Source: Rhodovarius crocodyli
GTDB taxonomy: Bacteria; Pseudomonadota; Alphaproteobacteria; Acetobacterales; Acetobacteraceae
Reading direction: 5' to 3'
Length of the DNA: 64,000 nucleotides
NCBI GenBank assembly: GCA_945901085.1
Contig: CAMDJV010000001.1
Span: 124,001-188,000 of the forward strand
A program made the position numbers and the translations under genes. The notes beneath the pieces were generated by a model. It was not told the origin of the DNA, did no database searches, and was given only the letters and a program-made list of their open reading frames with translations. Every line of letters starts with the position of its first letter. The first letter of the stretch is position 1. This document shows positions 1,808 through 47,234 of the stretch, piece after piece.

Positions 1808-3769
1808 ATGCCAGACCCCACTCGTCCCCCCGCACGCCCCCCCGCACGCCCCGGGGCGCGCACCCTCTGGTTCTCCGCCGCCGGCCTTCTCGCCGCCGCC
1901 GCCCTGGCGCTGGGCCTCAATATGCTGACCGAGCGCTTCGCCACCCATTGGCGGGTCGATCTCACCCAGGCCCGGCTCTACACCCTGTCGGATGGCACCC
2001 GCCAAGTGCTCGCAGCCCTGCGCGAGCCCGTCACCCTGAGGCTCTACTATTCCCGCCGCCTCGGCGCCGAGGTGCCGGCCTATGGCGCCTATGCCGAGCG
2101 GGTGCGCGATATGCTGGGCGAATATGTCGCCGCCAGCGGGGGCAAGCTGCGCCTCGAACAACTCGACCCCGAGCCCTTCTCGGATACGGAGGACCGCGCC
2201 ACCGCGCTGGGCCTGCAGGCCGTGCCGCTGGACCAGGCCGGCGAGCAGGTGTTTTTCGGCCTCGCCGCCAGCAATATGGCCGATGAGGAACGCACCATCC
2301 CCTTCTTCCAGCCGGAGCGCGAACGCTTCCTGGAACTCGATCTCACCCGCCTCATCTACGACCTCTCCTCCCCCACCCGCCCGGTGGTGGGCGTGCTGAC
2401 CGCCCTGCCGCTGAATGGCGACCCGCGGGCGATGATGATGCGCCAGCCGCAACTGGCCCAGCCGCAGGTGGTGATGACCCAGTTGCGCCAATTCACCACG
2501 CTGCGCGACATCGCCCCCGATACCCAGGTGATCGACCCCGAGATTCGCGTGCTCATGCTGGTCCACCCGCAAAACCTGCCCCAGACCACGCTCTACGCCA
2601 TCGACCAATTCGTCATGCGCGGCGGCCGCCTGCTTGCGATGCTCGACCCGCATAGCGAAATGCAGGCCGCCCGCGCCCCCGGCGGCCCCGGCGCGCCCCC
2701 GCCCGCGACATCCTCCAACCTCGACCGCCTGCTCCATGCCTGGGGTGTGGAAACGGTGAGCGACCAGGTGGTGCTGGATCTGCGCGGCGCCTGGCGCGTG
2801 CGCGCCGGGCAGAATGACCGGGTGCAGGCGGTGGATTACGTCGCCTGGTTCGCCATGCAGGGCGATAGCCTGAACCGCAATGAGCCGGTCACCGCCCAGC
2901 TCGAACAGGTCAGCCTGGGCAGCGCCGGCCTCATCCGCCCCCGCCCCGGCGCCGCCATCGAATTCACCCCGCTGCTGACCAGCTCCGCCCAATCCATGCT
3001 GATGGACGCGACCCGGGTGCGGGTGGAACCCAACCCCACCCGCATCCTGGCCGATTTCCGCGCCGAAGGTCAGCGCCACGTCATCGCCGCCCGGCTGCGC
3101 GGCGCCCTGCGCAGCGCCTTCCCCGATGGCCCGCCCGCCCTGGAAGAGGGCCAGGAGCGCGCGGCCGACATGCCCGCCCACAAAACCGCCAGCGACGACA
3201 TCGCCAACCTCGTGGTGATCAACGACACCGATATTTTGGATGACCGTTTCTGGGTCCGTGTCGAAAACTTCTTCGGCCAGCCCATGGCGACCCCCTTCGC
3301 CGGCAATGGCAGCTTCATCGTCAATATCGCCGAGCAATTGGGCGGCTCCGATGCGCTGATCGGCCTGCGCAGCCGCGGCGAATCGCTCCGCCCGTTTGAG
3401 GTGGTGGACGCCATCCGTCGCAGCGCCGATGCGCAATACCGCCAGACCGAACGCGGCCTGCAGGAGCGGCTGGAGGCCACCGAAAGGCGCCTGCGCGAAC
3501 TCCGCCAGGGCAGCACGGCCCCCGCCGGCGAGCGCAGCCAGAGCCTGATCACCCCCGAACAGCGCGCCGAGATCGACCGCGCCCGCGAGGAGATTGCCAA
3601 TACCCGCCGCCAATTGCGCTCGGTGCAATTGGAACTGCGCCGCGACATCGAAGCGCTGGAAACCAACCTGCGCATCATCAACATCGCCCTGGTGCCGCTG
3701 CTGATCACCGGCCTCGCCATCGGCCTGGCCCTTTTGCGGGCGCGGCGCCGGTCGGCGGCACGGGCATGA
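1808..3769 (+). CDS. GldG-like ABC auxiliary protein
   Basis: About 653 residues with a proline-rich N-terminus, one membrane segment near residues 18-40, a long periplasmic region and a second membrane segment close to the C-terminus (INIALVPLLITGLAIGLALL). An Arg/Glu-rich coiled coil lies just before that last helix. This is the architecture of GldG/ABC_transp_aux proteins (family knowledge). ATG at 1808 is used; an in-frame TTG at 1799 would overlap the permease stop and is also possible. The last bases overlap the DUF4340 gene. It probably forms the extracytoplasmic part of the GldA/GldF-type transporter. Confidence 0.88.
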   Translation: MPDPTRPPARPPARPGARTLWFSAAGLLAAAALALGLNMLTERFATHWRVDLTQARLYTLSDGTRQVLAALREPVTLRLYYSRRLGAEVPAYGAYAERVRDMLGEYVAASGGKLRLEQLDPEPFSDTEDRATALGLQAVPLDQAGEQVFFGLAASNMADEERTIPFFQPERERFLELDLTRLIYDLSSPTRPVVGVLTALPLNGDPRAMMMRQPQLAQPQVVMTQLRQFTTLRDIAPDTQVIDPEIRVLMLVHPQNLPQTTLYAIDQFVMRGGRLLAMLDPHSEMQAARAPGGPGAPPPATSSNLDRLLHAWGVETVSDQVVLDLRGAWRVRAGQNDRVQAVDYVAWFAMQGDSLNRNEPVTAQLEQVSLGSAGLIRPRPGAAIEFTPLLTSSAQSMLMDATRVRVEPNPTRILADFRAEGQRHVIAARLRGALRSAFPDGPPALEEGQERAADMPAHKTASDDIANLVVINDTDILDDRFWVRVENFFGQPMATPFAGNGSFIVNIAEQLGGSDALIGLRSRGESLRPFEVVDAIRRSADAQYRQTERGLQERLEATERRLRELRQGSTAPAGERSQSLITPEQRAEIDRAREEIANTRRQLRSVQLELRRDIEALETNLRIINIALVPLLITGLAIGLALLRARRRSAARA

Positions 3770-4758
3770 GGCGGCGCGGCCTGCTGCTGCTGGGCGGAAG
3801 TGCCGCCGCCAGCATTGGCGCAGCCCTCTATCTCGCCCCCCGCCCGGACAACACGGCAGCCCCCGGTGCCGGCATGCTCGCCTTCCCCGGCCTCGCCGCC
3901 CGCCTGCCACAGGCGGCGCTGCTGGAAATCCGCCGCCATGACGCCACCCTGCTGGTGCGCCGCGATGGCGAGCGCTGGCTGCTGCCCGACCGCAACAACT
4001 ACCCCATCCGCGAGGCAAAGCTGCGCGAATTGCTCACCGGCCTCAGTGAACTTCGCCTCATGGAACCCCGTGGCAGCGACCCGGCCAATCTCGCCCGGCT
4101 GGGGGTGGATGACCCGCAAACCCCAGGCAGCACCGCCAGCCATCTGCGCCTGCTCGACGCCCCGGGCACGCCGATTATCTCGGTCACCCTCGGCCGCCGC
4201 CGCGTCCGCACCCAGGGCAATATCCCCGAAACCATCTATATCCGCCGCGCGGGCGATGCCGAGGCCTGGGCCGCCGAGGGCCGCATCCCGCTCGATGGCG
4301 ATGCCGCCTCCTGGATGGAGCGTGATGTGGCGAATTTCCCCGCCGAGCGCCTGCTGCGCGCCGCCATCAACCGCCTGGGCGCCGAGCCCCTCACCCTGGC
4401 CCGCGCCGCCCCCGGCGCGCCACTGCTGCTGACCACCCCGCCCGACGCCGCCACGCCGAATCCCGGCGCGCTCGATGAAGTGGCCCGCGGCCTCGAATAC
4501 CTCACCTTCATCGATGCGCTGCCCGAGGCGCAGAACCACGGCACGCCCCTGGGCGAAGCACGTTTCGAACTCACCGGCGGCCTCACCATCCAAATCCGCT
4601 GCAGCCGCCTCGACCAATTCCTCTTCATCCGCCTCACCGCCGAAGGCCCAGAGGCGCAAAGCTTGAACGCCCGCTGGCAAGGCTGGGCCTACCAGGTAGG
4701 CATCTGGAAAGAAAAAGCCTTCCTGCCCACGCTGGAAGAACTGACCCAAAGCCCATGA
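3766..4758 (+). CDS. DUF4340 domain-containing protein
   Basis: 330-residue protein with an N-terminal signal or anchor (MRRRGLLLLGGSAAASIGAALYL) and a soluble periplasmic remainder rich in beta-strand-like sequence. DUF4340 proteins are regularly encoded directly after GldG-like genes, and that is the arrangement here. The ATG overlaps the previous stop, and the 3' end overlaps the Nudix gene by four bases. No catalytic motif is visible. The context points to a structural or substrate-handling partner of the ABC complex; the molecular role is unknown. Confidence 0.85.
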   Translation: MRRRGLLLLGGSAAASIGAALYLAPRPDNTAAPGAGMLAFPGLAARLPQAALLEIRRHDATLLVRRDGERWLLPDRNNYPIREAKLRELLTGLSELRLMEPRGSDPANLARLGVDDPQTPGSTASHLRLLDAPGTPIISVTLGRRRVRTQGNIPETIYIRRAGDAEAWAAEGRIPLDGDAASWMERDVANFPAERLLRAAINRLGAEPLTLARAAPGAPLLLTTPPDAATPNPGALDEVARGLEYLTFIDALPEAQNHGTPLGEARFELTGGLTIQIRCSRLDQFLFIRLTAEGPEAQSLNARWQGWAYQVGIWKEKAFLPTLEELTQSP

Positions 4759-5189
4759 CCGGCCGCGAATTCCCCACCCGCCCCTGGGTGGGCATCGGCA
4801 CGATTATTTTTCGCGGTGAGGCGGTGCTGCTGGCCCGCCGCGGCAAGCCGCCCCGGCTGGGCAGTTGGTCACTGCCCGGCGGCGCACAGCATCTGGGCGA
4901 GGGCGCCGAGGCCTGCGCCCGCCGTGAACTCTTGGAAGAAACCGGGATAGAGGCCGGCCCCCTCCTCCTGGCCGATGTGATCGATTCCGTCAGCCTCGAT
5001 GAGCAGGGCCAGGTGCGCTACCACTACACCATCATCGATTATTGCGGCCATTGGTCAGCCGGCGAGGCCCGCCCCGGCGATGATGTGGCCGAAACCGCCT
5101 GGGCGCTGCCTGATGAATTGTCGGCCTATGCCCTCACCCGCGAGGCGATGGCCGTCATCGCCAAGGCCCGCAGGATTCTCGCCGCCTAG
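4755..5189 (+). CDS. Nudix hydrolase
   Basis: 144-residue cytoplasmic hydrolase of nucleoside-diphosphate-linked substrates. The Nudix box is complete: GGAQHLGEGAEACARRELLE followed by ETGI fits Gx5Ex7REUxEExGU. The ADP-ribose or (d)NTP preference cannot be told from sequence alone. Its start overlaps the DUF4340 stop, so it is co-transcribed with the ABC set. The function may be incidental to that operon. A structured repeat follows 14 bp after the stop. Confidence 0.93.
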   Translation: MTGREFPTRPWVGIGTIIFRGEAVLLARRGKPPRLGSWSLPGGAQHLGEGAEACARRELLEETGIEAGPLLLADVIDSVSLDEQGQVRYHYTIIDYCGHWSAGEARPGDDVAETAWALPDELSAYALTREAMAVIAKARRILAA

Positions 5190-5202
5190 CGAGAACTGAA
5201 CA

Positions 5203-5355
5203 GTGCTGATGGCAGGAAAAAAGAGCGAAAGGGCTTTGCCCTTTCGCGCTCTCCCAGCAGGGTCGACATGTATGTCGACCCTGCTGGGGTGCTCGAGGAG
5301 CAAAGCCCCTCGATCTTGTCCTCCCCCCCCTCGCTACTCGTCTTTCCGCAGCGGC
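5203..5355. repeat. Dispersed multi-hairpin repeat, copy A (short form)
   Basis: Shares its outer parts with three other copies in this window. A GAGCGAAAGGGC...GCCCTTTCGCGCTC hairpin lies on the left and a CGAGG(A/G)GCAAAGCCCCTCG hairpin on the right. The AT-rich middle found in the other copies is replaced by a perfect palindrome at 5253-5288: 17-bp arms CCCAGCAGGGTCGACAT and its complement around a 2-base loop. The element fills most of the gap between the Nudix gene and the TTT binding protein. It has no coding potential and behaves like a MITE or REP-type element. Confidence 0.75.
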
Positions 5356-5445
5356 TAAACCAAGCTGCGTTTTAGGCGTTGCCGCGAAAGCCTATCACGC
5401 CAGAACCCGCTGGATCGCAGCCCAGGCTTGGGCCATGCTGCGCCC

Positions 5446-6438
5446 ATGATGATCAACCGCCGCACCCTTCTCGCCACCCCCGCCCTGCTGGCCTTACCCG
5501 CCCATGCCCAACCCATCGCCGGCGGCCGCCCGGTGCGCCTCGTGGTGCCCTTCCCGCCCGGCGGCGCGGTGGATTTGCTCGGCCGGCTGCTGGCGGAGCG
5601 CCTCGCCCCCGCCCTGGGGCAGAATGTGGTGGTGGAAAACCGCGGCGGCGCCGGCGGCATCCTCGGCGCCGATGCCGTGGCCAAGGGCGACAAGGATGGC
5701 ACCATGCTGGGGCTGATCGGCGTGACCACCCTGGCCGCCTTCCCCTTCATGACCAACCGCCTGCCCTTCGACCCGGTGCGCGACCTCGCCCCGGTCAGCC
5801 AGATCACCGATGGCGCGCTGCTCTGCGTCGTCAATGCCGAGATCGCCCGGCGGCATGGCTGGACGGATTTCCGCAGCATGCTCCTCTGGTCACGCGCCAA
5901 TCCGGAAAAGGTGCGCATGGGCTCCTCCGGCAGCGGCACCTCGAGCCATCTCAATATCGAGGCGATCAACCGCGCCGCCCAGGCGCAGATTCTGCACGTG
6001 CCCTATCGCGGCGGCGGCCCTGCCATCAATGACCTGCTGGCCGGCAATATCGAGATGATGTTCGACGTCATGCCCGCCCTGATGCCGCATGTCGAAAGCG
6101 GCCGCTTCCTGGCCTTCGCCGTCTCCTCCAACGCCACCCTGCCCTTCCTGCCGAATGTGCCGGGCATGGCCGCCTTCGCCGATCTCGGCCTGGGCCGCCA
6201 CAATGTGGTCACCTGGAACGCCATCATGGCCCCCGCCGGCGTGCCGGAAGCCACCATCACCCGGCTGCACCAAGCCATAGGCCAGGTGGCGGCCGCCCCC
6301 GCCTTCGTCCAGCGCCTGCAACCGCTGGGCTATGGCACCGTGGTCAGCCGCGCCCCGGCCGATCTCGCGGCCCTCATCCAGGCCGAGCGGCCCTTCTGGC
6401 AAAACCTGGTGGAAATTTCCGGCGCAAGGCTGGATTGA
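5446..6438 (+). CDS. TTT-family (Bug) periplasmic solute-binding protein
   Basis: 330-residue extracytoplasmic binding protein. After MMINRRTLLATPALLALPAHA (signal peptide, cleavage after AHA) comes the Bug signature RPVRLVVPFPPGGAVDLLGR, then NRGGAGG and a C-terminal TTT lobe. Such proteins bind carboxylates for TctAB permeases; no permease is encoded here, as is common for the many orphan Bug proteins of Acetobacteraceae and Burkholderiales. ATG at 5446 (or 5449) is preferred over an upstream TTG at 5428 because it places the Arg pair directly before the hydrophobic core. It converges on prmA with a 2-bp gap. Confidence 0.92.
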   Translation: MMINRRTLLATPALLALPAHAQPIAGGRPVRLVVPFPPGGAVDLLGRLLAERLAPALGQNVVVENRGGAGGILGADAVAKGDKDGTMLGLIGVTTLAAFPFMTNRLPFDPVRDLAPVSQITDGALLCVVNAEIARRHGWTDFRSMLLWSRANPEKVRMGSSGSGTSSHLNIEAINRAAQAQILHVPYRGGGPAINDLLAGNIEMMFDVMPALMPHVESGRFLAFAVSSNATLPFLPNVPGMAAFADLGLGRHNVVTWNAIMAPAGVPEATITRLHQAIGQVAAAPAFVQRLQPLGYGTVVSRAPADLAALIQAERPFWQNLVEISGARLD

Positions 6439-6440
6439 AT

Positions 6441-7328
6441 TCAGCCCCGCCGGCGCAGCACCAGCGTGGTCCAGGGCCCCACATCAATCCGCCGCTCCAG
6501 CACCATGCCCTGTCGCCGATGCGCCGCCAGCACCATCCGCGCCTGGGTGCCCAGCAGCCCGGCCAAAATCGCCGTCCCCCCCGGCGCCAGCGCGCCCGCC
6601 ATATCCCGCGCCATGGCGCAAAGCGGCCGGGCCAGAATATTGGCAAAGACCAGATCATAAGGCCCATCGGTCTTCACCCGATGATGCCGCCAGCCATCCG
6701 CCAGCCGCGCACGCAGAATATTCCGCAGCCCGTTCATCACCCCATTCTGCGCCGCAATGCGGACCGACCATGGTTCGATATCGGTGGCCAGCACCGGCCG
6801 ATGCAGCCATTTCGCCGCCGCCATGGCCAAAATGGCCGAGCCACAACCCAAATCCAAAATCCGCCGCGGCCTTCGATGGGCCATGCCCTCAAACGCCATC
6901 AGGCAGCCGCGGGTGGAATTATGCTCGCCACTGCCAAAAGCCAGCCCGGCATCCAGCACCAGCACATGGCGCTCATAATCCCGCCGATTGGCCACATGGG
7001 TGGGGCGAATGAGAAACCGCCCGCCAATCGGCTGCTCGGGAAAGCTCTGCACCGTGCGCGCCAGCCAGCCCTCGGCCTCCACCGGCGCATGCTCCGCCAC
7101 CGCATCATGGCCCGACACCAGCGCCGCCAGCGCAAGCGCCGCCGTCAGCGCCCCTTGATCAGCCGATTGCGGCCGCACCGCCTCCAGCCGCCAGGTCTCA
7201 CCCGGCTCCTCGCGGAAATAGCCCACTGAAGTCGCCACCGATTGCAGCGCCGCCTCATAGACGGGCACCGCCTCATCCGGCAGGCCACTCAGGGTGATGG
7301 TCTCCAGAATTTCGGCCCGGCGCTTCAC
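6441..7328 (-). CDS. prmA: Ribosomal protein L11 methyltransferase
   Basis: 295-residue SAM-dependent methyltransferase that modifies ribosomal protein L11. The SAM-binding loop ILDLGCGSAILAMA lies at about residues 157-170. The PrmA-specific LDAGLAFGSGEHNSTR precedes it (125-140), and motif IV is present as DLVFANILARPL. The length is normal. The start overlaps the end of the helicase gene by four bases, so the pair is translationally coupled. Confidence 0.95.
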   Translation of the reverse strand: MKRRAEILETITLSGLPDEAVPVYEAALQSVATSVGYFREEPGETWRLEAVRPQSADQGALTAALALAALVSGHDAVAEHAPVEAEGWLARTVQSFPEQPIGGRFLIRPTHVANRRDYERHVLVLDAGLAFGSGEHNSTRGCLMAFEGMAHRRPRRILDLGCGSAILAMAAAKWLHRPVLATDIEPWSVRIAAQNGVMNGLRNILRARLADGWRHHRVKTDGPYDLVFANILARPLCAMARDMAGALAPGGTAILAGLLGTQARMVLAAHRRQGMVLERRIDVGPWTTLVLRRRG

Positions 7329-9558: not shown

Positions 9559-10494
9559 TTGCACGCCATCCGTCCATTTCTGGAGGCCTGCGCCCGGCAG
9601 GGGGCGCGCATTCTGGCCATCAGCATTTTCATCGGCCTGGCCGTGCCGCCGCTGGCAGGGCTGTTCCGCGATGTGGTGACCATCACGGTGGCCGGCCTGA
9701 TGACGTTGGTGCTGCTGCGGGTGGATTTCTCCCAGGTGCTGGCCTGGCTGCGCCGGCCATTGCTGATCGCCGCCCTATTGGCCTGGCTGCTGCTGGGCTG
9801 CCCCATTTTGGCCTATGCCGCCGCGTCATTCCTGCCGATCAGCCCGGGCTTTGCCGCGGGCCTCGTGGTGCTGGCCACCGGCTGCGCCGCCACCTCCAGC
9901 CCCGCCTTCGCCCGGCTGGTGGGGTTGGATGGCGATGTCGCCTTCGTGGTCTCCATCCTCTCCACCTTCCTCGTGCCCTTCACCGCGCCACCCATGGCGC
10001 TGGGGCTGATGAATATCGACCTCGCCCTCAGCCTGGGCGGGCTGATGACGCGGCTCGCCCTGCTGGTCGGGCTGCCCATGGCGCTCTCGCTCGTGCTGCG
10101 GCGGATCATCCCAGCCCCCGCCCTGGCGCGCGAGGCCCGGGCGGTTGATGGCATGGTGGTGCTGCTCGTCGCCGCCTATGGCGTGGGGGTGATGGATGGC
10201 GTGCTGGCGCTGTTCATGGCCTCGCCGCTGCATGTGCTGAGCGGCGTGGCCCTGGCCTTTGGCGGTTGCCTGGGCCTCAATATCGCAACAGCCCTGGCAT
10301 TTTCCGCCGCCGGCCCACGGCTGTCGCTGGCCGCCGGCCTGCTCTCCGGCAATCGCAACATGGCGCTCTACCTCGCCGTTCTGCCGCAGGAGACGGCGCC
10401 GGATATCCTGCTCTTCCTCACCCTCTGCCAATTCCCGCTCTTTCTCTCCCCCTTCCTGCTGGGCCCGGTCTATCGGCGGCTGCGCGGTGGCTGA
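9559..10494 (+). CDS. Bile acid:sodium symporter (BASS)-like membrane protein
   Basis: 311-residue polytopic membrane protein with about nine to ten hydrophobic segments. Glycine/serine-rich stretches such as [13 protein letters not shown] and [15 protein letters not shown] resemble the crossover segments of the BASS family. The start is TTG at 9559 preceded by AAAGGG at suitable spacing; the first hydrophobic segment begins soon after. The substrate is unknown. It is divergent from pcrA, with only 38 bp between the two starts, and overlaps rnhB by eight bases. Family placement is moderate, membrane topology firm. Confidence 0.75.
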
Positions 10495-11125
10495 TTTTTC
10501 CCATGAAACCGCCGCCGGCGGCCGGGTGGCAGGGGTGGATGAGGCCGGGCGCGGCCCCCTGGCCGGCCCCGTCATGGCCGCCGCCGTGGTCTTCCCCCAG
10601 GGCGTGCCCGCGCCCCTGGCCGCCCTGCTCGATGACAGCAAAGCGCTCTCCCCCCGACAACGCGAGCAGGCCTTCGCCGCCCTGGTTGCGGCACGGGCTT
10701 CCGGCATCGCCGAATATGCCGTGGCCGCCGCCTCGGCCCGCGAGATCGGCCGGCTGAATATTCTGGGCGCCACCCACCTCGCCATGCGCCGCGCCATACT
10801 GGGCCTGCCATCGCCGCCCGATCTGGCACTGATCGACGGCAACCGCCCCCCCGCCCAGGCCCCCTGCGCCACGGCCTGCCTGGTGGGCGGCGATGGCCTT
10901 TCACTCTCCATCGCCGCCGCCTCCATCCTGGCCAAGGTGCTGCGCGACAGGGCGATGACCCGGCTGGATGCGCGCTGGCCCGGCTATGGCTTTGCCCGCC
11001 ATATGGGCTACCCCACGGCGGCGCATCGCGCAGCCCTGGCCCAACTCGGCCCCAGCCCGCATCACCGCCGCGGCTTCGCCCCGGTCGATGCCGCCTGGCA
11101 GGCCCTGGCCGGGCACGCGCCATGA
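10487..11125 (+). CDS. rnhB: Ribonuclease HII
   Basis: 212-residue enzyme that removes ribonucleotides and RNA primers from RNA-DNA hybrids. The catalytic start [14 protein letters not shown] gives Asp18 and Glu19; LIDGN and [10 protein letters not shown] supply the rest of the RNase HII core. GTG at 10487 is chosen because it lies 16 residues before the first catalytic Asp and overlaps the upstream stop. The longer open frame from 10259 only reads through the transporter gene. Its end overlaps the next gene by four bases. Confidence 0.95.
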
Positions 11126-12150
11126 TCGCCGCCCTGCAATCCTGCCTGCATGACCTCTCGGCCCTCGGCCCGGGCGGGGTTCTGGCCCTGGTCTCGGCGC
11201 TGTTCCTGGCCGGGCTGGCCGGCGGTGCCACGCATTGCGCGGCCATGTGCGCCCCCTTCGTGCTGGCGCAGCTGCGCCCCGATAATGCCGGCGGCGCCAT
11301 GCTGCAAAGGCTGAGCGGCGCGGCGCTGCTGCCCTATCACGCCGGCCGCATGCTGGGTTACGCCACCCTGGGCGCCCTGGCCGGGGCAGGGGCCGGGCTG
11401 TTCAGCCAGATCACCGGCTTGCGCTGGCTGCTGGCGCTGCTGCTGGCGGCCGCAGCCCTGCTGATGGCCGCACAGGCGGCAGAAAGACTGGGCCTTGCCG
11501 CGCGGCTGCACCTGCCCGCCCTCCCCCTGCCGGCAGCACTCAACGCCCCGCTGCATCGCTTGCTGACAAAACCCGGCGACAGAAGCGGCTTCGCGCTGGG
11601 GGTGCTGCTCTCCGCCCTGCCCTGCGGCCTGCTCTACGCCGCGCTGGCGGCCGCCGCCGCCTCAGGCTCGGCCCTGGGCGGCGCCTTGGGCAGCCTCGCC
11701 GATGATGACTGGCTCTGGGGCGGTGACCTCGCCGCCATCCACACCACCATCACCCACGGCATCCGCAACCAGGACAGCGACGAAGCCCGCCTCTCCATGA
11801 TGCCCGTCTTCGGCAACGGCATCCTCACCCCCGCCCAAATCAGCGACGTAACCGAATACGTCCTCGCCCTCAGCGAACGCAGCACCAACCCCGAAGCCAC
11901 CACCCGCGGCGCCACCCTCTTCACCGAAAACTGCACCGCCTGCCACGGCGATGCCGGCCGCGGCAACCCGGAATTCGGCGCCCCCAACCTCACCGACCGC
12001 ATCTGGCTGCACGGGGCCGAACGCAGCCAAATCCAAGCCTCCATCACCCGCCCCCGCATGGGCGTGATGCCCGCCTTCAACCAACGCCTGGACCCAGCCG
12101 TGGTGAACATGCTGGCAGTGTACGTGCATAGCCTGGGTGGGGGGCGGTGA
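11122..12150 (+). CDS. Chimeric gene: SafE-like membrane protein fused to CcoP C-terminus
   Basis: 342-residue open frame made of two unrelated parts. Residues 1-190 are a TauE/SafE-like membrane protein of the type found in cbb3 clusters ([10 protein letters not shown] motif, [13 protein letters not shown] segment). From about residue 192 ([19 protein letters not shown]) it is cytochrome c subunit CcoP/FixP, retaining the axial Met region MMPVF, the second heme site CTACH (271-275) and its Met in VMPAFN, but lacking the membrane anchor and the first CxxCH. The junction lies near 11690-11705. In related clusters ccoNOQP lie between these parts, so the likeliest origin is an in-frame deletion of about 3 kb or a mis-assembly. 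A functional protein is doubtful. Confidence 0.85.
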
Positions 12151-12166
12151 TGGGTGGTGCAAGCTG

Positions 12167-12272
12167 CCCGGGGAAGGGCTTTGCCCTCCCCCGATACCCC
12201 CACCCACCAGGGGCCAACGGGCCCCTGGACCGCGGGGTAAAAGCCTGGGTGAGGGAGGGGGGCCAAATGCGC
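12167..12272 (+). repeat. GC-rich hairpin repeat, left arm of a head-to-head pair
   Basis: A 106-bp unit beginning CCCGGGGAAGGGCTTTGCCC. It contains its own hairpin AGGGGCC-AAC-GGGCCCCT and ends with GCCTGGGTGAGGGAGGGGGG. Its reverse complement recurs at 12287-12390 at about 80% identity by eye, with a 14-bp spacer. It occupies the gap between the chimeric ccoP remnant and ccoG. Confidence 0.8.
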
Positions 12273-12286
12273 ACCGCTCACGACAA

Positions 12287-12390
12287 GCGCACACCGCCCC
12301 CCTCCCTCACCCAGGCTTTCTCATGGGATCCAAGGGCCTCCCGGCCCTTGGTGGGGAGGGGTACGGGGAGGGGCAAAGCCCTTCCCCGGG
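12287..12390 (-). repeat. GC-rich hairpin repeat, right arm of a head-to-head pair
   Basis: A 104-bp inverted copy of the unit at 12167-12272. The internal stem is AAGGGCC-GGGA-GGCCCTT, and the outer end is GGGCAAAGCCCTTCCCCGGG. The compensating changes in the internal stem (AGGGGCC/GGGCCCCT in one arm, AAGGGCC/GGCCCTT in the other) suggest that the fold is maintained. It ends 13 bp before the ccoG start, so it forms part of the presumed ccoG leader. Confidence 0.8.
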
Positions 12391-12403
12391 CAACCAGCAC
12401 CAC

Positions 12404-13846
12404 ATGACCCTCTACGCCACCCACACCAAGGTCCAGCCTCGTGCCGTCCAAGGCCGTGTGCGGCGGGTAAAATGGCTTGTGCTCTGGGTCCTGCTTGCCC
12501 TGTATTACATAGTGCCCTGGCTCCGCTGGGACCGTGGCGCTTCCGTGCCCAACCAGGCCGTGCTGGTCGATATCGCCCATGCCAGGTTGTTTTTCTTCTG
12601 GGTCGAGTTATGGCCGCAGGAGGTCTATTTCCTCACGGGTGTGCTCATTTTAGGCGCTATAGGCCTGTTTGCCGTCACTTCGCTGTTCGGCCGGGTCTGG
12701 TGTGGCTTCACCTGCCCGCAGACGGTCTGGACCGATCTTTTCATGTGGGTCGAGCGGCAGATCGAGGGTGACCGCAATGCCCGCATCAGGCTCGATGCCG
12801 AGCCCTGGACCCCACATAAGCGCCGCCTGCGCCTGACCAAACACGCCGCCTGGATTTTTATTGCCATGGCAACCGGTGGCGCCTGGATCATGTATTTCAA
12901 CGATGCCCCAACCATCTTGCGGCAGATGCTCACCCTGCAGGCCAGTGCCACGGTCTATTTCTTCTTCGGCCTTTTCACCCTCACCACCTATACCCTGGCC
13001 GGTTTCGCCCGCGAGCAGGTCTGCACCTATATGTGTCCCTGGCCGCGCTTCCAGGCTGCCATGCTCGATGACCAATCGCTGGTGGTCAGCTACCGCGACT
13101 GGCGGGGCGAGCCGCGCGGCAAGTTGAGGGAGGCGGGCCATGGCGATTGCGTCGATTGCGCCGCCTGCCTGCATGTTTGCCCCACCGGCATTGATATCCG
13201 CGATGGCCAGCAATTGCAGTGTATTGGCTGCGGCCTTTGTGTTGATGCCTGTGACGATGTGATGCGCCGGCTTGACAGGCCACAGGGCCTGGTGGCCTTC
13301 GAAACCCTCGCCAACCTCGCCGCCAGCCAGGCCGCCACAAAGGGCATGGCGGCCAATGCCGCGCGGCAAAACGCCGGCATGGCGGTCCGGCGCATCCCCC
13401 GCCTGCTGCGGCCGCGCACGGTGATGTACACCGCCGTGCTCTCGGTGGTCGCAGCCATCATGGTCGCAGGCTTCCTCACCCGCGACACACTCTCGCTCTC
13501 CGTGCTGCGTGACCGTGCGCCGCTTTTCGTGCCCCTCTCCGATGGCAGCGTGCGCAACGCCTTCACCATCAAGCTGGTGAACAAGACGCATAAGACAGCG
13601 CGCTATACCCTGGTGCTGGAGGGCGCGCCGGGCGTCACCATCCTGGCCCAAGGTGCGGATACCGACCAGCAAGGCCGCCCCGTCCTCACCACCCGCCCCG
13701 ATGGCATCACCGAATGGCGCGTGCTGGCCACGACACCGGCCAGGGCGCACCTGCCCGCCAACCTGCCCATCTCCTTCCATCTCCACGACCCGCAGGGCCA
13801 TGATGTGGCCCATGCCCAAAGCGTCCTGCTGGGACCGCCACCATGA
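12404..13846 (+). CDS. ccoG: cbb3 oxidase assembly iron-sulfur protein CcoG (FixG/RdxA)
   Basis: 480-residue membrane-bound ferredoxin-like protein that delivers reduced copper during cbb3 oxidase maturation. WCGFTCPQTVW and CTYMCPWPRFQ lie in the membrane part. Two 4Fe-4S clusters are given by CVDCAACLHVCP and CIGCGLCVDACD, and an Ig-like periplasmic C-terminal domain follows. ATG at 12404 gives the normal family length; the frame is open back to 12137, but only through the inverted repeats. It overlaps ccoH by four bases. The oxidase it should serve is not encoded in the window. Confidence 0.94.
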   Translation: MTLYATHTKVQPRAVQGRVRRVKWLVLWVLLALYYIVPWLRWDRGASVPNQAVLVDIAHARLFFFWVELWPQEVYFLTGVLILGAIGLFAVTSLFGRVWCGFTCPQTVWTDLFMWVERQIEGDRNARIRLDAEPWTPHKRRLRLTKHAAWIFIAMATGGAWIMYFNDAPTILRQMLTLQASATVYFFFGLFTLTTYTLAGFAREQVCTYMCPWPRFQAAMLDDQSLVVSYRDWRGEPRGKLREAGHGDCVDCAACLHVCPTGIDIRDGQQLQCIGCGLCVDACDDVMRRLDRPQGLVAFETLANLAASQAATKGMAANAARQNAGMAVRRIPRLLRPRTVMYTAVLSVVAAIMVAGFLTRDTLSLSVLRDRAPLFVPLSDGSVRNAFTIKLVNKTHKTARYTLVLEGAPGVTILAQGADTDQQGRPVLTTRPDGITEWRVLATTPARAHLPANLPISFHLHDPQGHDVAHAQSVLLGPPP

Positions 13847-14313
13847 CAACACAGCCCTTCGACCCCCGGCGCAGCCGATGGATCCCCGGCGTCTTCATCG
13901 CCCTGATGCTATTGGTTGTGGTGGTGAATGGCACCATGGCCTGGCTGGCGCTGCGCAGTTTTACGGGTGTGACCACGCCACGCGCCTATGATCGCGGCCG
14001 CACATACAACGATGTTCTGGCCGAGGCGGCGCGGCAGGATGCGCTGGGCTGGCGGGCCGAGGTGAGCCTCGCCGATGCCACGCTGCGCCTGCATGTCACC
14101 GATGCCGCCGGCAACCCGGTCGCCGGCAGCGTCGAGGGCCTTTTGCAACGCCCGCTCACCGCCCAATCCTACCCGCTGGATTTCCGCCCCGTGGCCCCCG
14201 GCCGCTGGCAGGCCAATGCCATGCCAGGCCTGCCCGGCCAATGGGAGGCCCGCCTCACCCTGTTCGGCCGCGAAGGCCCCTTCGATATCCGCGCCCGATT
14301 GCTGCTGCCATGA
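13843..14313 (+). CDS. ccoH: cbb3 oxidase assembly protein CcoH (FixH family)
   Basis: 156 residues with one N-terminal membrane helix (WIPGVFIALMLLVVVVNGTM) and a periplasmic FixH domain containing YDRGRTYNDVLA near the start and a beta-rich remainder. CcoH is needed for assembly and stability of the cbb3 complex. It is translationally coupled on both sides: its start overlaps the ccoG stop and its stop overlaps the ccoI start. Confidence 0.92.
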   Translation: MTTQPFDPRRSRWIPGVFIALMLLVVVVNGTMAWLALRSFTGVTTPRAYDRGRTYNDVLAEAARQDALGWRAEVSLADATLRLHVTDAAGNPVAGSVEGLLQRPLTAQSYPLDFRPVAPGRWQANAMPGLPGQWEARLTLFGREGPFDIRARLLLP

Positions 14314-16662
14314 ACGCCCTCACCCCCCTCACCCCGGCCGAACCCGCACTCTCCCGCCGCCCCTGCCTGCATTGCGCAGCAGCCCTGCCCCCCGGGGCCA
14401 CCGTCTATTGCTGCACCGGCTGCGAAGCCGCCCATGCGCTGATAACAGGCCTAGGCCTCGATGCCTTCTACGCCAGGCGCGAGGCCGCCGCCGGCGAGTT
14501 GCGCCCAGTGCCCCCGCCCCCCCCTCGATTTCACCACCCGGGCACAGCCCCTGCCCGGGGGCGACCATAGGCTGGAATTGCTGATCTCCGGCCTGAGTTG
14601 CGGCGCCTGCGTCTGGCTCATCGAACAGGCGCTGGCCGCGGAGGCGGATGTGCTGGCCGCGCGGGTCAGCCTCACCACCCGCCGCCTCACCCTGCGCTGG
14701 CGCGGCCCGGCCGCACGCGGCAATGAACTGGTCGCCCTGCTGGCCCGCCTGGGCTTCCGCACCGCCCCCTGGTCCCCCGCCTGCCTGCGCGCCGCCGATG
14801 ATGCCGAGGGCCGGGCACTCATCCGCGCCCTCGGCATCGCCGCCTTCGGCTCCATGAACGTGATGCTGGTCTCCGTCGCCGTCTGGGCGGGCGGCGATAT
14901 GGGCGATGCCACCCGCGCCCTCATGCATGGCCTGGCCATGCTGATAGCCCTGCCGGTGGTGCTGCTGGCAGGCCTTCCCTTCTATCGCTCAGCCTGGGCC
15001 GGGCTGCGGGCGGGGCGGCTGAATATGGATATGGCCGTCTCCCTCGGCGTGCTGGCAACCACGGCCATGTCGGTCTCCGAAACCCTGCGCGGCGGCGCCT
15101 TCACCTGGTTCGATGGCGCCACCACGCTGCTCGCCTTACTCCTGGCCGGGCGGGTGCTAAACCATGGAGGCCGCCGCCGCGCCCGCCAGGCCAGCGCCCA
15201 GCTCCTGGCCCTGCAACAAGGCAGCGCCACCCGCCTCAACCCCGATGGCAGCAGCCAAACCCTGCCCCTGGAAGCCATTCTGCCCGGCCACCGCATCCTG
15301 GTCGCCGCCGGCGAGGCACTGCATCTCGACGCCGTGCTGGAAGATGCCACCGCCCTGCTCGACACCGCCGCCATCACCGGCGAGAGCCTCCCCCACCCTT
15401 ACAGACAGGGCGATACGCTCCCGGCCGGCGCCACCAATATGGGCGCGCCCTTCGTGGCACAGGTCAGCGCTACCCTCGCCGAAGGCTCCCTAGCGGCCAT
15501 GGCCCGCCTGCTGGAACAGGCCGAACAATCCCGCAGCCGCATCACCACCCTGGCCGACCGCGCCGCCGCCATCTACATCCCCGCCGCCCATGCCATTGCA
15601 GTGGCCACTTTCCTCGGATGGTGGCTGCTGGGCGGTGAAACCTGGCAGGGGGCCCTGGTGCCAGCCGTGGCAGCCCTCATCATCACCTGCCCCTGCGGCC
15701 TGGCCATCGCCGTCCCCGCGGTGCAGGTGGTGGCCGCCGGCGCGCTGTTCCGCCAGGGCGTGCTGCTCGCCCGCCCCGATGCGCTGGAGCGCCTGGCCAG
15801 CGCCGACCACGTGGTGCTGGACAAAACCGGCACCCTCACCCAAGGCCGCCCCACCCTACTCCCCGACCCCCACCCCGAGGCCGCACTCCGCCAAGCCGCC
15901 GGCCTCGCCGCCGCCAGCCGCCACCCCCTGGCCCGCGCCCTGCACCGCGCCTGCCCCGATGCCACCCTGGCCGATGGCGTGCGCGAATTCCCCGGCCAAG
16001 GCCTCCAGGCCCCAGGCATGCGCCTGGGCAGCGCCCAATTCCTCGGCCTAGACCAGCAAGATGATGGCATGGCCCTATGGTTCGCCGCCCCCGGCCAGCC
16101 CCCTCAGTGTTTCCGCTTCACCGATGCGCTGCGCGCCGATGCCCCCGCCGCCATCGCCGCCCTGCAGGCCCAGGGCCTCAGCCTGGAAATCCTCTCCGGC
16201 GACGCCCCCCCGGCAGTCGCCGCGGTCGCCGCCACCCTGGGCCTCGAACACTTCACCGGCGGCGTAACACCGCAAGGCAAGGCCGCCCGGCTGCAATGCC
16301 TGACCGCCACCGGCCACCACCCCCTGATGATCGGCGATGGCAGCAATGACGCCGCCGCCCTCGCCATGGCGCATGTCTCGGCCTGCCCCGCCGGCAGCAC
16401 GGAATTGGCGCAATCCGCCGCTGATATCCTGCTCACCGCCGAGGGCCTCGCCCCCATCCCCGCCGCCATCGCCACCGCCCGCCGCGCCCAACGCATCGCC
16501 CGGCAGAATATCGGCCTCTCGCTCGCCTATAACGCCCTGGCCGTGCCGCTCGCGGTGGCGGGTCTGGTCACGCCGCTGCTGGCCGCCGCCGTCATGGCCT
16601 CCTCCTCGCTCATCGTCATCCTCAATGCGCTGCGCGCCGGGGGGCGGACATGGACGCGCTGA
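14310..16662 (+). pseudogene. ccoI: Copper P1B-type ATPase CcoI (FixI), split by a frameshift
   Basis: Heavy-metal ATPase that exports copper for cbb3 assembly. The first part (14310 to about 14520) encodes the Cys-rich N-terminus PCLHC...VYCCTGCEAAH. After a run of eight C at about 14517-14524 the rest continues one base out of frame: metal-binding GLSCGACV, TGES, ion-channel TCPCGLA, phosphorylation site DKTGTLTQG and GDGSNDAAALA. Joined together the product would be about 780 residues, normal for CcoI. All catalytic motifs are intact, so the lesion is recent, a sequencing error in the homopolymer, or a slippage site. The second frame alone has a start only at 14461. Confidence 0.88.
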
Positions 16663-16808
16663 TCCTGCTCATCCCCATCGCCCTCTTTCTCGGCCTGCTG
16701 GGGCTGGCCGGCTTTCTCTGGGCCCTGCGCGCCGGCCAATATGACGATCTGGACGGTGCGGCCGCGCGCATTCTCTTCGACGACACCCCACCCCGAAAGG
16801 ACCCCTGA
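16650..16808 (+). CDS. ccoS: cbb3 oxidase maturation protein CcoS
   Basis: 52-residue protein starting at the ATG at 16650 and overlapping the end of ccoI by 13 bases. The sequence has one membrane helix (LILLIPIALFLGLLGLAGFL) followed by the CcoS hallmark WALRAGQYDDLDGAAARILF. CcoS is required for heme and copper insertion into the catalytic subunit. The position directly after ccoI is the canonical gene order. Confidence 0.93.
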   Translation: MDALILLIPIALFLGLLGLAGFLWALRAGQYDDLDGAAARILFDDTPPRKDP

Positions 16809-17091: not shown

Positions 17092-17826
17092 GTGAATCCA
17101 CTCGACAGCCTGTCAGGCCAAAAAACCGCCCAAAACCCCGCCGCCCCCTGCGCGCGCTGCGGCAGCCGCATAGCCGGCATCTGCGCCGCGCTGGACATTG
17201 CCGGCCTCGACGAGATCGCCCATGACGCCCGCCGCAGCCCGGTGCAGGCGCGCGAAACCCTGTTCCGTGAGGGGGACCCTACCAGCGCCGTCATCATGCT
17301 GGTCAGCGGCATGGCCAAGCTGTCACGGCTCATGGCCGATGGCAGGCAGCAGGTGCTGGGTTTTCGCTTCGCCGGCGATATCATGGGCTTCACCCATGGC
17401 CATTCCCATTCCGCCGATGCCGAGATGCTGACCGATGGCCTGGTCTGCCGCATGACCCGCACGCAACTCGACGCCATGCTCGTGCGCTTCCCCGCCGCCC
17501 AGCGCCGACTGATGGAGCTCTGCGTGCAGGAATTGGCCCTCACCCAGGACCAATTGGTGACAGTCGGCCGCCGCCATGCCGAACAGCGCGTCGCCGCCTT
17601 CCTGATCTCCCTCTCCGTCGCCGCCCGCCGCCGCGCCGAATTCTCCCAGCAACTCGAAATGCCCATGACCCGCGCCGAAATTGGTGACCTGCTGGGCCTG
17701 GCGCTGGAGACGGTAAGCCGCGCCTTCACCGCCCTGCGCAAGCGCGGCCTGGTGATCGAGCACCCCGGCCATCGGGTGGAATTGCCCGATCTGGAAGCCC
17801 TGGCCCTGGTGGCGGATGGGGTTTAG
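17092..17826 (+). CDS. fnr: FNR-type oxygen-responsive transcription regulator
   Basis: 244-residue Crp/Fnr regulator. Cysteines at 20, 23, 31 and 119 match the four [4Fe-4S] ligands of FNR, so it should sense oxygen directly. The DNA-recognition helix reads LALETVSRAF; the E..SR residues are those that in FNR contact TTGAT half-sites. Translation starts at GTG, preceded by GAGGAGG. It sits just downstream of the cbb3 maturation genes, which FNR or FixK proteins normally control. I could not find a convincing TTGAT-N4-ATCAA box in this window. Confidence 0.92.
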   Translation: MNPLDSLSGQKTAQNPAAPCARCGSRIAGICAALDIAGLDEIAHDARRSPVQARETLFREGDPTSAVIMLVSGMAKLSRLMADGRQQVLGFRFAGDIMGFTHGHSHSADAEMLTDGLVCRMTRTQLDAMLVRFPAAQRRLMELCVQELALTQDQLVTVGRRHAEQRVAAFLISLSVAARRRAEFSQQLEMPMTRAEIGDLLGLALETVSRAFTALRKRGLVIEHPGHRVELPDLEALALVADGV

Positions 17827-32766: not shown

Positions 32767-35700
32767 ATGGACCACGCGACCGATATCTTCCCCGAGCCTT
32801 CGCCGGAACCTTCGGATGAGCCGGCACGCAAACCGGTCTCGGCCACGCTGGCGCGGCTGCGCATTGCCGGGTTCAAGAGCTTCGCCGAGCCCACCACGGT
32901 GGAGATTCGCCCGGGCCTGACCGGCATTGTCGGCCCCAATGGCTGCGGCAAATCCAATGTGGTGGAGGCGCTGCGCTGGGCGATGGGCGAGAGCAGCGCG
33001 CGCTCGCTACGGGGCGGCGAGATGGATGACGTGATCTTCGCTGGCACCGCCACCCGCCCGGCGCGCAACCTGGCCGAGGTGACGCTGAGCCTGGAGGATG
33101 CGCTGGGCGTGGCCCCCGCACCGCTCGATGGCGAGCATGAATTGGAGATAGCCCGGCGCATCACCCGGGGCGAGGGCTCGGGCTATCGCATCAATGGGCG
33201 TGAGAGCCGCCAGCGCGATGTGCAAACGCTGTTTGCGGATCTGGCCTCCGGGCCGCGCGCCTCAGGCATGGTCAGCCAGGGCCGGGTGGCGACGCTGATC
33301 GCGGCCAAGCCGGAGGAGCGGCGCGCGGTGCTGGAGGAGGCGGCGGGCATTGCGGGCTTGCGGGCCCGGCGGCACGAGGCGGAGCTGAAACTCCGCCAGG
33401 CGGAGAACAACCTGCTGCGCGCCGATGACCTGACCGGGCAATTGGAGGCGATGCGCGAATCGCTTGGCCGGCAGGCAAAGCAGGCGAGCCGCTACCGCAA
33501 CCTTTCGGGGCTGGTGCGCGATGCCGAGGCGGCGATGTTCGCCCTTATGGTGGCGCGTGCCGGCATGGCGGTGGAGGCCGCGGGGGAGAATCGCAGCGCC
33601 GCTTTGGCCGCGACCCGCCGGGCGGAGGCCCAGGCCGAGGCCGCGACCATCGCCGCGCACGAGGCCGAACAGGCCCTGCCTGCCCCCCGCGCCGCCGAGG
33701 CCGAGGCGCGCACTGCCCTCGAACGCCGCAGGCTGGAGGCCGAAGGGGTGGAAGCGGCCCTGGCCCGCGCCCAGGCCGCGCTCGAGGCCGCCCAGGCCTT
33801 GGCGACGCAAATCGCCGCCGACCTCGCCCATGCCGAGGCGATGGCCGCCGATGCCGCCCAGGCCGAGGCCCGCGCCGGGCGCGAGGATGCCGCCGCCGCC
33901 CAGGCCCTGGCTGCCCTGCCCGCCCGGGTTGAGGATACCACTTCGCGGTTGAGCATGGCCGAGGAGGCGGTGCGCGCGGGCGAGCAGGCGGCCAATATCG
34001 CCACCGACGCCGCCGCCCAGGCCGCCGCCCAGGCCAATCAGATGGCGGCCGAACTCGCCTTTGCCGAGCAGCGGGCGCGTCGGCTCGCCGAGCAGCAAGC
34101 CCGGCTGGAGGCCGACCACGCCGCCGCCGAGGCCACCGCCGTGCCACCCGAAGCCCTGGCGACAGCCGAGGCCGAGGGCGAGGCACGCGGGGTGGCGCAG
34201 CGCGAGGCCCGCGCCCGGCTGGAGGCGGCGGAGGCGGCCCGGGCCGAGGCGGCGAACCAGGCGGCCGAGGCCAATCGGGCCATGGGGGATGCCGAGGCCA
34301 ATCGCGCCCGGACCCGGCGGGAGTTGGAATCGGCCGAGGCGCGGGCCCGCCGCGCCGCCGATCAGGCCCAGGCCATCACCCGCCAGCATGAGCAGGCGCT
34401 GGCGCAGCGCGTGGCCGCCGAGGCCCTGGCCAAGGCCGAGGCAGCGCAGGAGGCGGCCGAGGCCGGAGCGCGCGCCACCGCCCAGGCGCTGAGCGAGGCC
34501 GCCACCGCCCGGCAGGAAGCGGCCGAGGCGCTGGGCCTCGCCCGCCAGGGGGCCAGCGCCGCTGAGGCCGCCGTCACCCGCCTCGCGGCTGAGGTGGAGG
34601 GGCTGAGCGCCACCCTAGCCGGGGCCCGCCCGGCCAATGCGGCGCCGATTATTGATGCCATCACCGTGCCCGAGGGGCTGGAAGCGGCGCTGGGGGCGGC
34701 GCTGGGTGAGGCTTTGGATTCAGCGCGCGACCCGCATGCGGCGCGGCATTGGCGCGCCTTGCCGCCGCTGGCCGTGGCAGCCGCCCTGCCGGCGGGGGCG
34801 ACGGCGCTGGCTGATCTGGTGCAGGCGCCGCCGGAATTGGCGCGGGCCTTGTCGCAGATTGGGCTGATCGAGGGCGATGGCGCGGGATTGCAGGCGGCGC
34901 TGGCCGCTGGGCAATCCCTGGTGGACCGGGCGGGCAAGCTCTGGCGCTGGGATGGCCATACGGTGGCGGCCGGTGGGCCCAATCCGGGCGCGGCGCGGCT
35001 GCAGCAATTGGCCCGGCTGCGGCAGGCCGAGGCGAAGTTTTCCGCCCTGCGCGCGGCGGAGGCGGCGGCGGCGGAGGCCCGCAGCGCGGCCCAGCGCGAG
35101 GAAAACAGAACCGCTCAGGCCGAGGCCGCCGCCCGCAGCGCGCGCGATCAGGCCGAGGCCACGGCGCGGGAGGCCCGGCGCATGGCGGCCGATATCGCCG
35201 CCCGCCACGCCGCCGCGGAGGGCCGGCTGGCCGCGCTGGCGCCGCAAATCGCCCGCATGGCGGCAGAAAGCGAGGAGGCCGAGGCCGGGCTGCGCGCGGC
35301 CCGGGCCGTGCTCGCCGCCCTGCCGGAACTGGCCGCGATGGCCCAGGCCCAGGCGGCGGCCAACCTTGGCCTGCGTCAGGCCCAGGCCGAGGAGCATGCG
35401 GCGCGCGAGGCCCGACGCCTGGCCGAGACGGCGCTGGAACAGGCGCGCGGCACGGCCTCGGCGCTGGCGGCGCGCGCGGCCTCGGCGGCGGCGCGTATTG
35501 CGGCTCTCGCGCCGCAGCGCGAGCGGCTGGGCGCGGAATGGCGTGAGGCGGAGGCCTCGCTGGCGGCCTCGCGCGCTGCCCGGGCCGCGCTGCCGGACCT
35601 CGCCACCGCGCGCGAGGCGGTGGAGCAGGCCAGGCGCGGGCTGAGCGAGGTGCGCGGCGCCGAAAACACCGCCCGGGCCGAGCGCGCCAGCTTGCTGGCC

Positions 35701-36831
35701 GAGGGCGAGCGGCTGGCCCTCCGCCGCGCCAGCCTGGCTGAGGAGCGCGCCGGCTGGGCGGCTCGGCGGGAGGATGCGGCCGGCCGCGTGACGGGGCTGC
35801 AGGCGCGGGCCGAGGCCGCCGTGGCCGAGGTGGCGCGGCTGGCGGATTTGCCCTCAGAGGCCACAGCCCAGCGCGATGCCGCCGCCCGCCACCTCGCCGC
35901 CGCCGAGGCCGCGCATGCCGAGGCACAGGCCGCGTTGAATGCGGCCGAGGCCCGGCTACGCGCTGCCCTTGATACCAGGCGTGACGCCGATGCCGGCTTC
36001 AGCATTGCGCGCGAAAACCAACTGCGCGCCGAGGCGGCGCTGGAGGCGGCACAGACCGCCGGGCAGGCACTAGCCGCCCGAGTGATCGAACGGCTGGGTG
36101 AGGATGCCAGCCTGCCAGACCCTGGCGAAGACCCAGGTGAGGCCGCCGAGGAGCGCGCCCGGCGCAAGCTCGACCGGCTGAGCCGTGAGCGGGAGGAGAT
36201 GGGGCCGGTCAATCTTCGTGCTGAGATTGAATTGGCCGAGGTGGAGCAGCGGCTGGTCGATATCGCCCGCGAGCGGGAGGAGATCACCGCCGCCATCGCC
36301 AAGCTGCGCGGCACGATCGGGCATTTGAACCGCGATGCGCGGGCGCGGCTGCGCGAGGTGTTCGACCGGGTGGACCGGGAATTTCAGGCACTGTTCCAGA
36401 AACTCTTCGGCGGTGGGCGGGCGCATATTGCGCTCGTCGGCAATGAGGACCCGCTGGAGGCTGGCCTCGAGATTTTCGCCGAACCGCCGGGTAAGAAGCT
36501 CTCCGCCCTCTCGCTGCTCTCAGGCGGCGAGCAGGCGCTGACGGCGCTGTCGCTCATCTTTGCGGTGTTTCGCTGCCAACCGGCGCCGGTTTGCGTGCTG
36601 GACGAGGTGGATGCGCCGCTGGATGACGCGAATGTGGAGCGGCTTTGCGACCTGCTCGATGCCATGGTGCAGGATGGCGCGACCCGGTTTCTGATCATCA
36701 CCCACCATGCGCTGACCATGGCGCGGATGCATCGGCTCTATGGTGTGACGATGCAGGAGCGGGGGGTTTCGCGGCTGCTGAGTGTTGATCTGGGCCAGGC
36801 GGTGGCGATGGTGGAGCAGCCGCTGGCTTAA
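32767..36831 (+). CDS. smc: Chromosome segregation protein SMC
   Basis: 1354 residues, clearly longer than the usual ~1150-1200. The N-terminal head has FKSFAEPT and Walker A GPNGCGKSN at about 56-64. The hinge lies near residues 615-740 (PIIDAITVPEGLEAALGAAL). The C-terminal head has LSGGEQALTALSLIFAV (signature) and CVLDEVDAPLDDANV (Walker B and D-loop). The two arms are extremely rich in Ala, Glu and Arg. SMC compacts and segregates the chromosome with ScpA and ScpB, not encoded here. The start at ATG 32767 is close behind a short 16-codon frame of no evident value. Confidence 0.94.
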   Translation: MDHATDIFPEPSPEPSDEPARKPVSATLARLRIAGFKSFAEPTTVEIRPGLTGIVGPNGCGKSNVVEALRWAMGESSARSLRGGEMDDVIFAGTATRPARNLAEVTLSLEDALGVAPAPLDGEHELEIARRITRGEGSGYRINGRESRQRDVQTLFADLASGPRASGMVSQGRVATLIAAKPEERRAVLEEAAGIAGLRARRHEAELKLRQAENNLLRADDLTGQLEAMRESLGRQAKQASRYRNLSGLVRDAEAAMFALMVARAGMAVEAAGENRSAALAATRRAEAQAEAATIAAHEAEQALPAPRAAEAEARTALERRRLEAEGVEAALARAQAALEAAQALATQIAADLAHAEAMAADAAQAEARAGREDAAAAQALAALPARVEDTTSRLSMAEEAVRAGEQAANIATDAAAQAAAQANQMAAELAFAEQRARRLAEQQARLEADHAAAEATAVPPEALATAEAEGEARGVAQREARARLEAAEAARAEAANQAAEANRAMGDAEANRARTRRELESAEARARRAADQAQAITRQHEQALAQRVAAEALAKAEAAQEAAEAGARATAQALSEAATARQEAAEALGLARQGASAAEAAVTRLAAEVEGLSATLAGARPANAAPIIDAITVPEGLEAALGAALGEALDSARDPHAARHWRALPPLAVAAALPAGATALADLVQAPPELARALSQIGLIEGDGAGLQAALAAGQSLVDRAGKLWRWDGHTVAAGGPNPGAARLQQLARLRQAEAKFSALRAAEAAAAEARSAAQREENRTAQAEAAARSARDQAEATAREARRMAADIAARHAAAEGRLAALAPQIARMAAESEEAEAGLRAARAVLAALPELAAMAQAQAAANLGLRQAQAEEHAAREARRLAETALEQARGTASALAARAASAAARIAALAPQRERLGAEWREAEASLAASRAARAALPDLATAREAVEQARRGLSEVRGAENTARAERASLLAEGERLALRRASLAEERAGWAARREDAAGRVTGLQARAEAAVAEVARLADLPSEATAQRDAAARHLAAAEAAHAEAQAALNAAEARLRAALDTRRDADAGFSIARENQLRAEAALEAAQTAGQALAARVIERLGEDASLPDPGEDPGEAAEERARRKLDRLSREREEMGPVNLRAEIELAEVEQRLVDIAREREEITAAIAKLRGTIGHLNRDARARLREVFDRVDREFQALFQKLFGGGRAHIALVGNEDPLEAGLEIFAEPPGKKLSALSLLSGGEQALTALSLIFAVFRCQPAPVCVLDEVDAPLDDANVERLCDLLDAMVQDGATRFLIITHHALTMARMHRLYGVTMQERGVSRLLSVDLGQAVAMVEQPLA

Positions 36832-47157: not shown

Positions 47158-47164
47158 GGGTTGG

Positions 47165-47234
47165 TCAATGGGCTTTCCCAATATGGCAAGGTCAAGAGGG
47201 CGCTTGACCTTGCCATAGGGGAAGGCGCGATGCT
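47165..47234. promoter_or_regulatory. Divergent copA/copZ promoters with two CueR-type operators
   Basis: A perfect 15-bp inverted repeat, TATGGCAAGGTCAAG (47182-47196) and its complement (47203-47217), is separated by AGGGCG. Each arm carries a TTGACC -35 element (minus 47195-47190, plus 47204-47209). Each is followed after a 19-bp MerR-type spacer by CATTGA (minus) or GATGCT (plus) as -10. The spacers hold ACCTTGCC...GGGAAAG and ACCTTGCC...GGGGAAGG, close to the CueR operator. Both start codons lie 7-8 bases past the -10. Confidence 0.8.

Follow-up and report, generated by a model that had tools for sequence, protein, structure and literature searches.

CcoP (FixP) is the diheme subunit III of cbb3 oxidases, and proteins of the SafE/DsbD_2 family (PF13386) are six-helix membrane proteins encoded beside cbb3 genes. 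In the window (the whole stretch of 64,000 nucleotides of Rhodovarius crocodyli DNA that we analysed), parts of both are joined in a single reading frame. The cytochrome part is like CcoP in its match to the C-terminal portion of the TIGR00782 model and in its heme-2 CXXCH, but unlike it in having neither the anchor helix nor the heme-1 CXXCH, and in belonging to a genome without ccoN and ccoO. Similarly, the membrane part keeps the Cys motifs of SafE helices 1 and 4, but ends before helix 5, with cytochrome sequence in place of the 52 C-terminal residues (TM5-6) of full-length SafE. Among solved structures, the CcoP-cytochrome cy fusion (PDB 6xkx) also holds a CcoP domain inside a fused polypeptide, although the molecule name of that protein describes a CcoP with an added cytochrome, whereas the window fusion contains half of CcoP only. 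The orphan cbb3 subunits of Pseudomonas aeruginosa are comparable in that a subunit gene stands outside a complete operon; however, as far as the accessible portion of PMC5697931 describes them, these are whole CcoN proteins that join complete oxidases, while the window genome has no complete oxidase of this type for such a subunit to join. Among the papers listed by our literature searches, no description of a safE-ccoP fusion of the present kind was found. Rhodovarius is listed among genera without photosynthetic traits in the accessible part of PMC10715153, in which the strings cbb, ccoP, ccoN and FixN were not found.

The fused frame and its neighbours

The fused frame lies between an RNase HII gene and a run of intact cbb3 maturation genes, in the following order (window coordinates).

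10259-11125, + strand: rnhB (RNase HII), in the place next to safE that hemN takes in relatives
11122-12150, + strand: fused ORF safE'-'ccoP, 342 aa, open frame, with Pfam DsbD_2 and cytochrome c matches
11122-11691, + strand: SafE/DsbD_2 part, codons 1-190, with predicted helices 1-4 and the conserved Cys regions CAAMC and LPCG
11690-11692, + strand: fusion joint; matches to DNA of the sister genome G004 end at 11690 and start at 11691, and the codon reading is 190/191
11692-12147, + strand: CcoP C-terminal part, codons 191-342, with one CXXCH (TIGR00782 positions 121-284; PDB 9g83_v)
12154-12403, no strand: intergenic inverted repeats between ccoP and ccoG, whose family has numerous divergent copies across the genome
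12407-13846, + strand: ccoG, intact (TIGR02745, 502 bits; cut-off 316.7)
13843-14313, + strand: ccoH (FixH), intact (Pfam FixH, 101 bits; cut-off 23)
14461-16662, + strand: ccoI, copper P-type ATPase, intact (TIGR01511, 406.5 bits; cut-off 397)
16650-16808, + strand: ccoS, intact (Pfam FixS, 75.8 bits; TIGR00847, 79.2 bits, cut-off 28.35)
17092-17826, + strand: Crp/Fnr-type regulator, FixK/FnrL-like, intact ORF (below the FixK and FnrL cut-offs)

An earlier note on this DNA had described one uninterrupted frame that joins a SafE-like protein to the C-terminal half of CcoP, and the frame itself, Pfam and TIGR00782 all bear this out: the ORF runs from an ATG at 11122 to a TGA ending at 12150 without an internal stop. 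Pfam assigns residues 27-192 to DsbD_2 (E 4.6e-26; 92.4 bits against a cut-off of 24.9; model positions 2-157 of 199) and finds cytochrome c models at residues 259-337, while the NCBIfam ccoP model (TIGR00782) aligns its positions 121-284 of 285 with residues 180-341. The first 120 model positions, which hold heme site 1 and the membrane anchor, are thus missing, in agreement with the earlier note, and the score of 177.1 bits falls under the cut-off of 179.95 (the CcoP of G004 reaches 310 bits). The closest solved chain is likewise a CcoP (PDB 9g83_v; residues 177-341, E 2.1e-39).

As the earlier note had also proposed, the second heme site and both Met motifs are retained. The sole CXXCH of the fusion is CTACH at residues 271-275 (window 11932), where TIGR00782 proteins have two heme sites, and the Met motifs are MPVF at residue 227 (window 11800) and MGVMPAF at residue 313 (window 12058), the Met residues of which we take to be heme ligands.

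The joint and the genes missing from the assembly

The joint, previously placed near 11690-11705, could be fixed at 11690-11692 by DNA matches and codon alignments. The match to G004 safE stops at contig position 135690 (window 11690) and that to G004 ccoP begins at 135691 (window 11691), with codon 190 (GGC, 11689-11691) on one side and codon 191 (AGC, 11692-11694) on the other. At the site of window Ser191, all 23 aligned SafE relatives have Met, and CcoP relatives carry the block (S/T/N)LADDDW or close variants of it. About two bases (CA) are common to both parental sequences, which read GGC-ATG in safE (GGG-ATG in G004) and CCC-AGC in G004 ccoP. The 21-mers that span the joint are all (19/19) single-copy in the window and five other stretches of the genome, and the joint sits deep in its contig of 291 kb, some 135 kb away from one end.

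Third-position composition also shifts at the joint, as expected if two pieces with different histories were joined there. CTG and CTC are used 36 and 6 times in the SafE part, and 4 and 9 times in the CcoP part, of which the first ~100 codons (window 11692-11990) are nearly devoid of third-position G. Of the 100-codon slices (552, overlapping) cut from 46 putative genes of the window, the three poorest in third-position G (0.07-0.10; median 0.385) fall within the CcoP part or, in one instance, begin 15 codons before the joint. The same bias is seen in weaker form in ccoI of the cluster and in ccoP of G004.

Between the two halves, congener G005 has a block that the window genome (G000; 3.85 Mb, 91 contigs, completeness 96.8%) does not show. 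In G005, 6.05 kb that include ccoNOQ and the 5' half of ccoP separate the two matching pieces. A 10.5-kb G005 query, reaching from upstream of safE into ccoG, gave six matches in G000; the safE match ends at 135682 and the ccoP match starts at 135694, so that they abut across the 6.05-kb gap in the query, and the remaining matches are to ccoG and to three short stretches (30-50 bases) elsewhere with E above 1e-4. Apart from two short matches of 46-50 bases within the gap region, which are at chance level, no counterpart of the ~6.05-kb block was found on the 91 contigs, nor did query positions 3031-6759 of the G004 cco locus (DUF2189 gene, ccoN, ccoO and ccoP 5' half) match anything in G000. 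FixO/ccoO, present in all other genomes of the genus that were searched (8/9 in total; 5/6 of those with at least 90% completeness and at most 5% contamination), was not found in G000. The lone COX1 match there is CtaD (NCBIfam, 711 bits; cut-off 671), so the partner subunits of a CcoP are missing and the aa3 oxidase remains; cytochrome bd was not found in the genome. The assembly thus shows neither ccoN nor ccoO nor the 5' half of ccoP, as the earlier note implied, and these searches of the 91 contigs found none of the missing genes at another site, although at 96.8% completeness absence from the assembly is not proof of absence from the organism.

The earlier note further expected ccoNOQP between the two parts in related clusters, and this holds in some relatives, with additional genes. 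G005 and G006 share the order hemN, safE, a FAD-binding gene, a DUF2189 gene on the other strand, and ccoNOPGHI; the FAD_binding_2 and DUF2189 genes thus separate safE from ccoP in addition to ccoNOQ, and G006 carries two further ORFs within this order (we name its FAD gene from the similarity of the translated sequence, and ccoQ from its position). The expectation fails in the sister genome G004, where safE and ccoNOQP are on different contigs. In a wider scan of named genomes, in which the best 80 of 207 relatives gave 79 distinct loci, 78 of these have ccoO upstream of ccoP, the exception (L088) being a sequence that starts inside ccoP; safE falls within the flanks analysed at 29 of the 79 loci, and at 23 of these it lies upstream in the same orientation.

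Among the matches listed, the fusion itself appears confined to this genome. Of 397 genomes of the family, 230 had some match to it, and among the matches listed (down to ~165 bits, a level at which a very divergent fusion could be missed) only G000 covers residues 1-342; in another set of 60 relatives, 28 match the fusion and again only G000 does so over both halves. A conserved fusion family is therefore unsupported. A G004 match over residues 120-342, considered as a second fusion, proved to be an ordinary CcoP of 288 aa that is loosely aligned on its N side.

Deletion, rearrangement or assembly error

We consider it likely that the joint records a genuine and fairly recent deletion, in which the catalytic genes of cbb3 were lost and a remnant stayed behind in frame. 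Such a deletion would have spanned about 6 kb, judging from G005, and would have been sealed with almost no homology between its ends, taking the 3' end of safE, the genes after it, ccoN, ccoO, ccoQ and the 5' half of ccoP, and leaving safE and ccoP in one frame by chance. The genome would thereby have been left without a cbb3 oxidase while keeping its aa3 oxidase, and the fused ORF would most likely be a remnant with no cbb3 role. The intact state of ccoGHIS and of the Fnr-type regulator would follow from the young age of the loss. If correct, this would be an unusually fresh case of cbb3 discard, with the catalytic core gone and the maturation genes and regulator still standing.

The other flank of safE has changed as well. 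The gene directly upstream of safE is hemN in all four congeners examined (G004, G005, G006 and G007; G001, G002 and G003 are outside this count, and G008 gave no safE match), and that of G004 passes the HemN model with 379.6 bits (cut-off 325). In the window, safE directly follows rnhB, with overlapping stop and start, and hemN was not found in G000, where the HemN search returned one stretch of 29% identity that passes the HemW model. Two neighbouring low-oxygen functions are therefore missing, one on each side of safE, a pattern that speaks for real gene loss over one error of assembly without proving it. HemF, the aerobic alternative to hemN, is present in G000 (L127 1501-2379, contig C20), but the ORF reaches only position 270 of the 295 in the Pfam model and stops about 25 residues before the end of the solved bacterial HemF 8t7w, so that it is possibly truncated or affected by a sequence error; because of this early end, a picture in which aerobic enzymes cover the loss of hemN is not a clean one. 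In G004, the interval between rnhB and safE (L102 1278-5123) holds a radical-SAM gene, which we liken to bchE, a small ORF and hemN, the first two being named by resemblance only.

A rather unlikely variant concerns the mechanism, and overlaps with the deletion reading without excluding it: safE and cco loci that lay apart would have been brought together by an inversion or translocation. G004 offers a model for such an arrangement, with safE converging on smc and ccoNOQP placed on a different contig, after a Ppx/GppA gene, and the direct ancestor may accordingly not have had the G005 order. The window has its own smc at 32767-36831, 21 kb downstream of the joint and in the same direction as safE, an orientation relative to safE that is opposite to that in G004 and suggests rearrangement. 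However, safE stands upstream of ccoNOQP on the same strand in G005 and G006, as it does in most of the named-genome loci with safE described above, and the G004 order may itself be derived, given that in G000 the Ppx/GppA gene, near the end of its contig, precedes other genes, in which stretch no ccoN or ccoO match was found. Nor was a 3' piece of safE found within the window, which speaks against such an exchange.

The earlier note had left the choice between a precise in-frame deletion and an assembly collapse. An artefact of assembly or binning, in which normal safE and ccoNOQP exist and a chimeric read, a strain mixture or a mis-join created the joint while the contig with the block went missing, seems to us unlikely. 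The fragmentation and incompleteness of the assembly would allow it, as would the intact ccoGHIS and regulator although their client oxidase is gone, and the presence of ccoO in all eight other genomes of the genus that were searched. On the other hand, no repeat crossing the joint, on which an assembler could have collapsed the sequence, was found within window 11400-12600, and the missing genes left no orphan contig. The inverted repeats at 12154-12403 lie away from the joint, and the longest of their other copies has an identity of 84%, with short pieces coming closer (97% over 37 bases), which speaks against a repeat-driven collapse. Taken with the depth of the joint within its contig and the loss of hemN on the opposite flank, these observations favour a real deletion; the word "precise" overstates it, since an in-frame junction has a one-in-three probability of arising by chance. 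Should the joint nevertheless be false, the case would be a warning on inferring oxidase loss from assemblies.

Age of the probable loss and predicted topology of a possible product

Branch lengths under LG+G4 (trees without G001) were similar in the window genome and G004 for the CcoP part (0.166 vs 0.163), and differed more for the SafE part (0.257 vs 0.139), with values of 0.164 vs 0.132 for ccoG, 0.443 vs 0.347 for ccoH, 0.225 vs 0.180 for ccoI and 0.227 vs 0.126 for fnr. None of 29 Tajima relative-rate tests, which have low power, detected significant acceleration (maximum chi-square 2.95, for fnr against G006, below 3.84). Neither half thus evolves significantly faster than its counterpart in the sister species, and a recent date for the deletion is probable. 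Nevertheless, for each of the six genes the window branch is longer than that of G004, a possible hint of some relaxation or of a small general excess.

The membrane-anchored mono-heme product that the earlier note had envisaged is topologically possible by hydropathy, but we read the ORF as a remnant. At one threshold, SafE shows six hydropathy peaks in G004 and G005, five in G006, and the fusion three, its second helix falling below the threshold, so that at most four helices precede the joint where SafE has six. The joint is at the end of loop 4, between predicted SafE helices 4 and 5. In the SafE proteins of the three relatives, Lys and Arg are absent from the N-terminal segment and from loop 4, and number 2-3 in loop 1 and 5-8 in loop 3. 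By the positive-inside rule, a loop 4 without Lys or Arg would put the CcoP part in the periplasm, the compartment in which heme c is attached. If translated, the fusion could thus form a membrane protein of four helices that carries a periplasmic cytochrome domain with a single heme.

That the fusion is a working new protein of this kind, a periplasmic mono-heme cytochrome anchored by four SafE helices and passing electrons, for example, to the aa3 oxidase, strikes us as very improbable: the open frame with its heme-2 CXXCH, the predicted periplasmic position and the unaccelerated CcoP part speak for it, but that low divergence is equally well explained by a recent deletion, SafE helices 5-6 are lost, only three hydrophobic peaks pass the threshold, a join in frame is a one-in-three event, and with no other holder among the matches listed from the 397 family genomes there is no conservation to show selection. 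It is just as hard to credit that a one-step deletion made a topologically correct membrane cytochrome that now serves electron transfer in a lineage that gave up cbb3. Such a deletion would also illustrate how chance can yield a membrane cytochrome with a workable topology.

Relatives of the large inverted repeats at 12154-12403 occur at many genomic sites, and G004 also has them between ccoP and ccoG. Its safE is followed by a short repeat (L102 5851-5962), of which the window genome contains many copies of 81-91% similarity. A second P-type ATPase, 33% identical to CcoI, is encoded on the minus strand of the window at 45013-47205.
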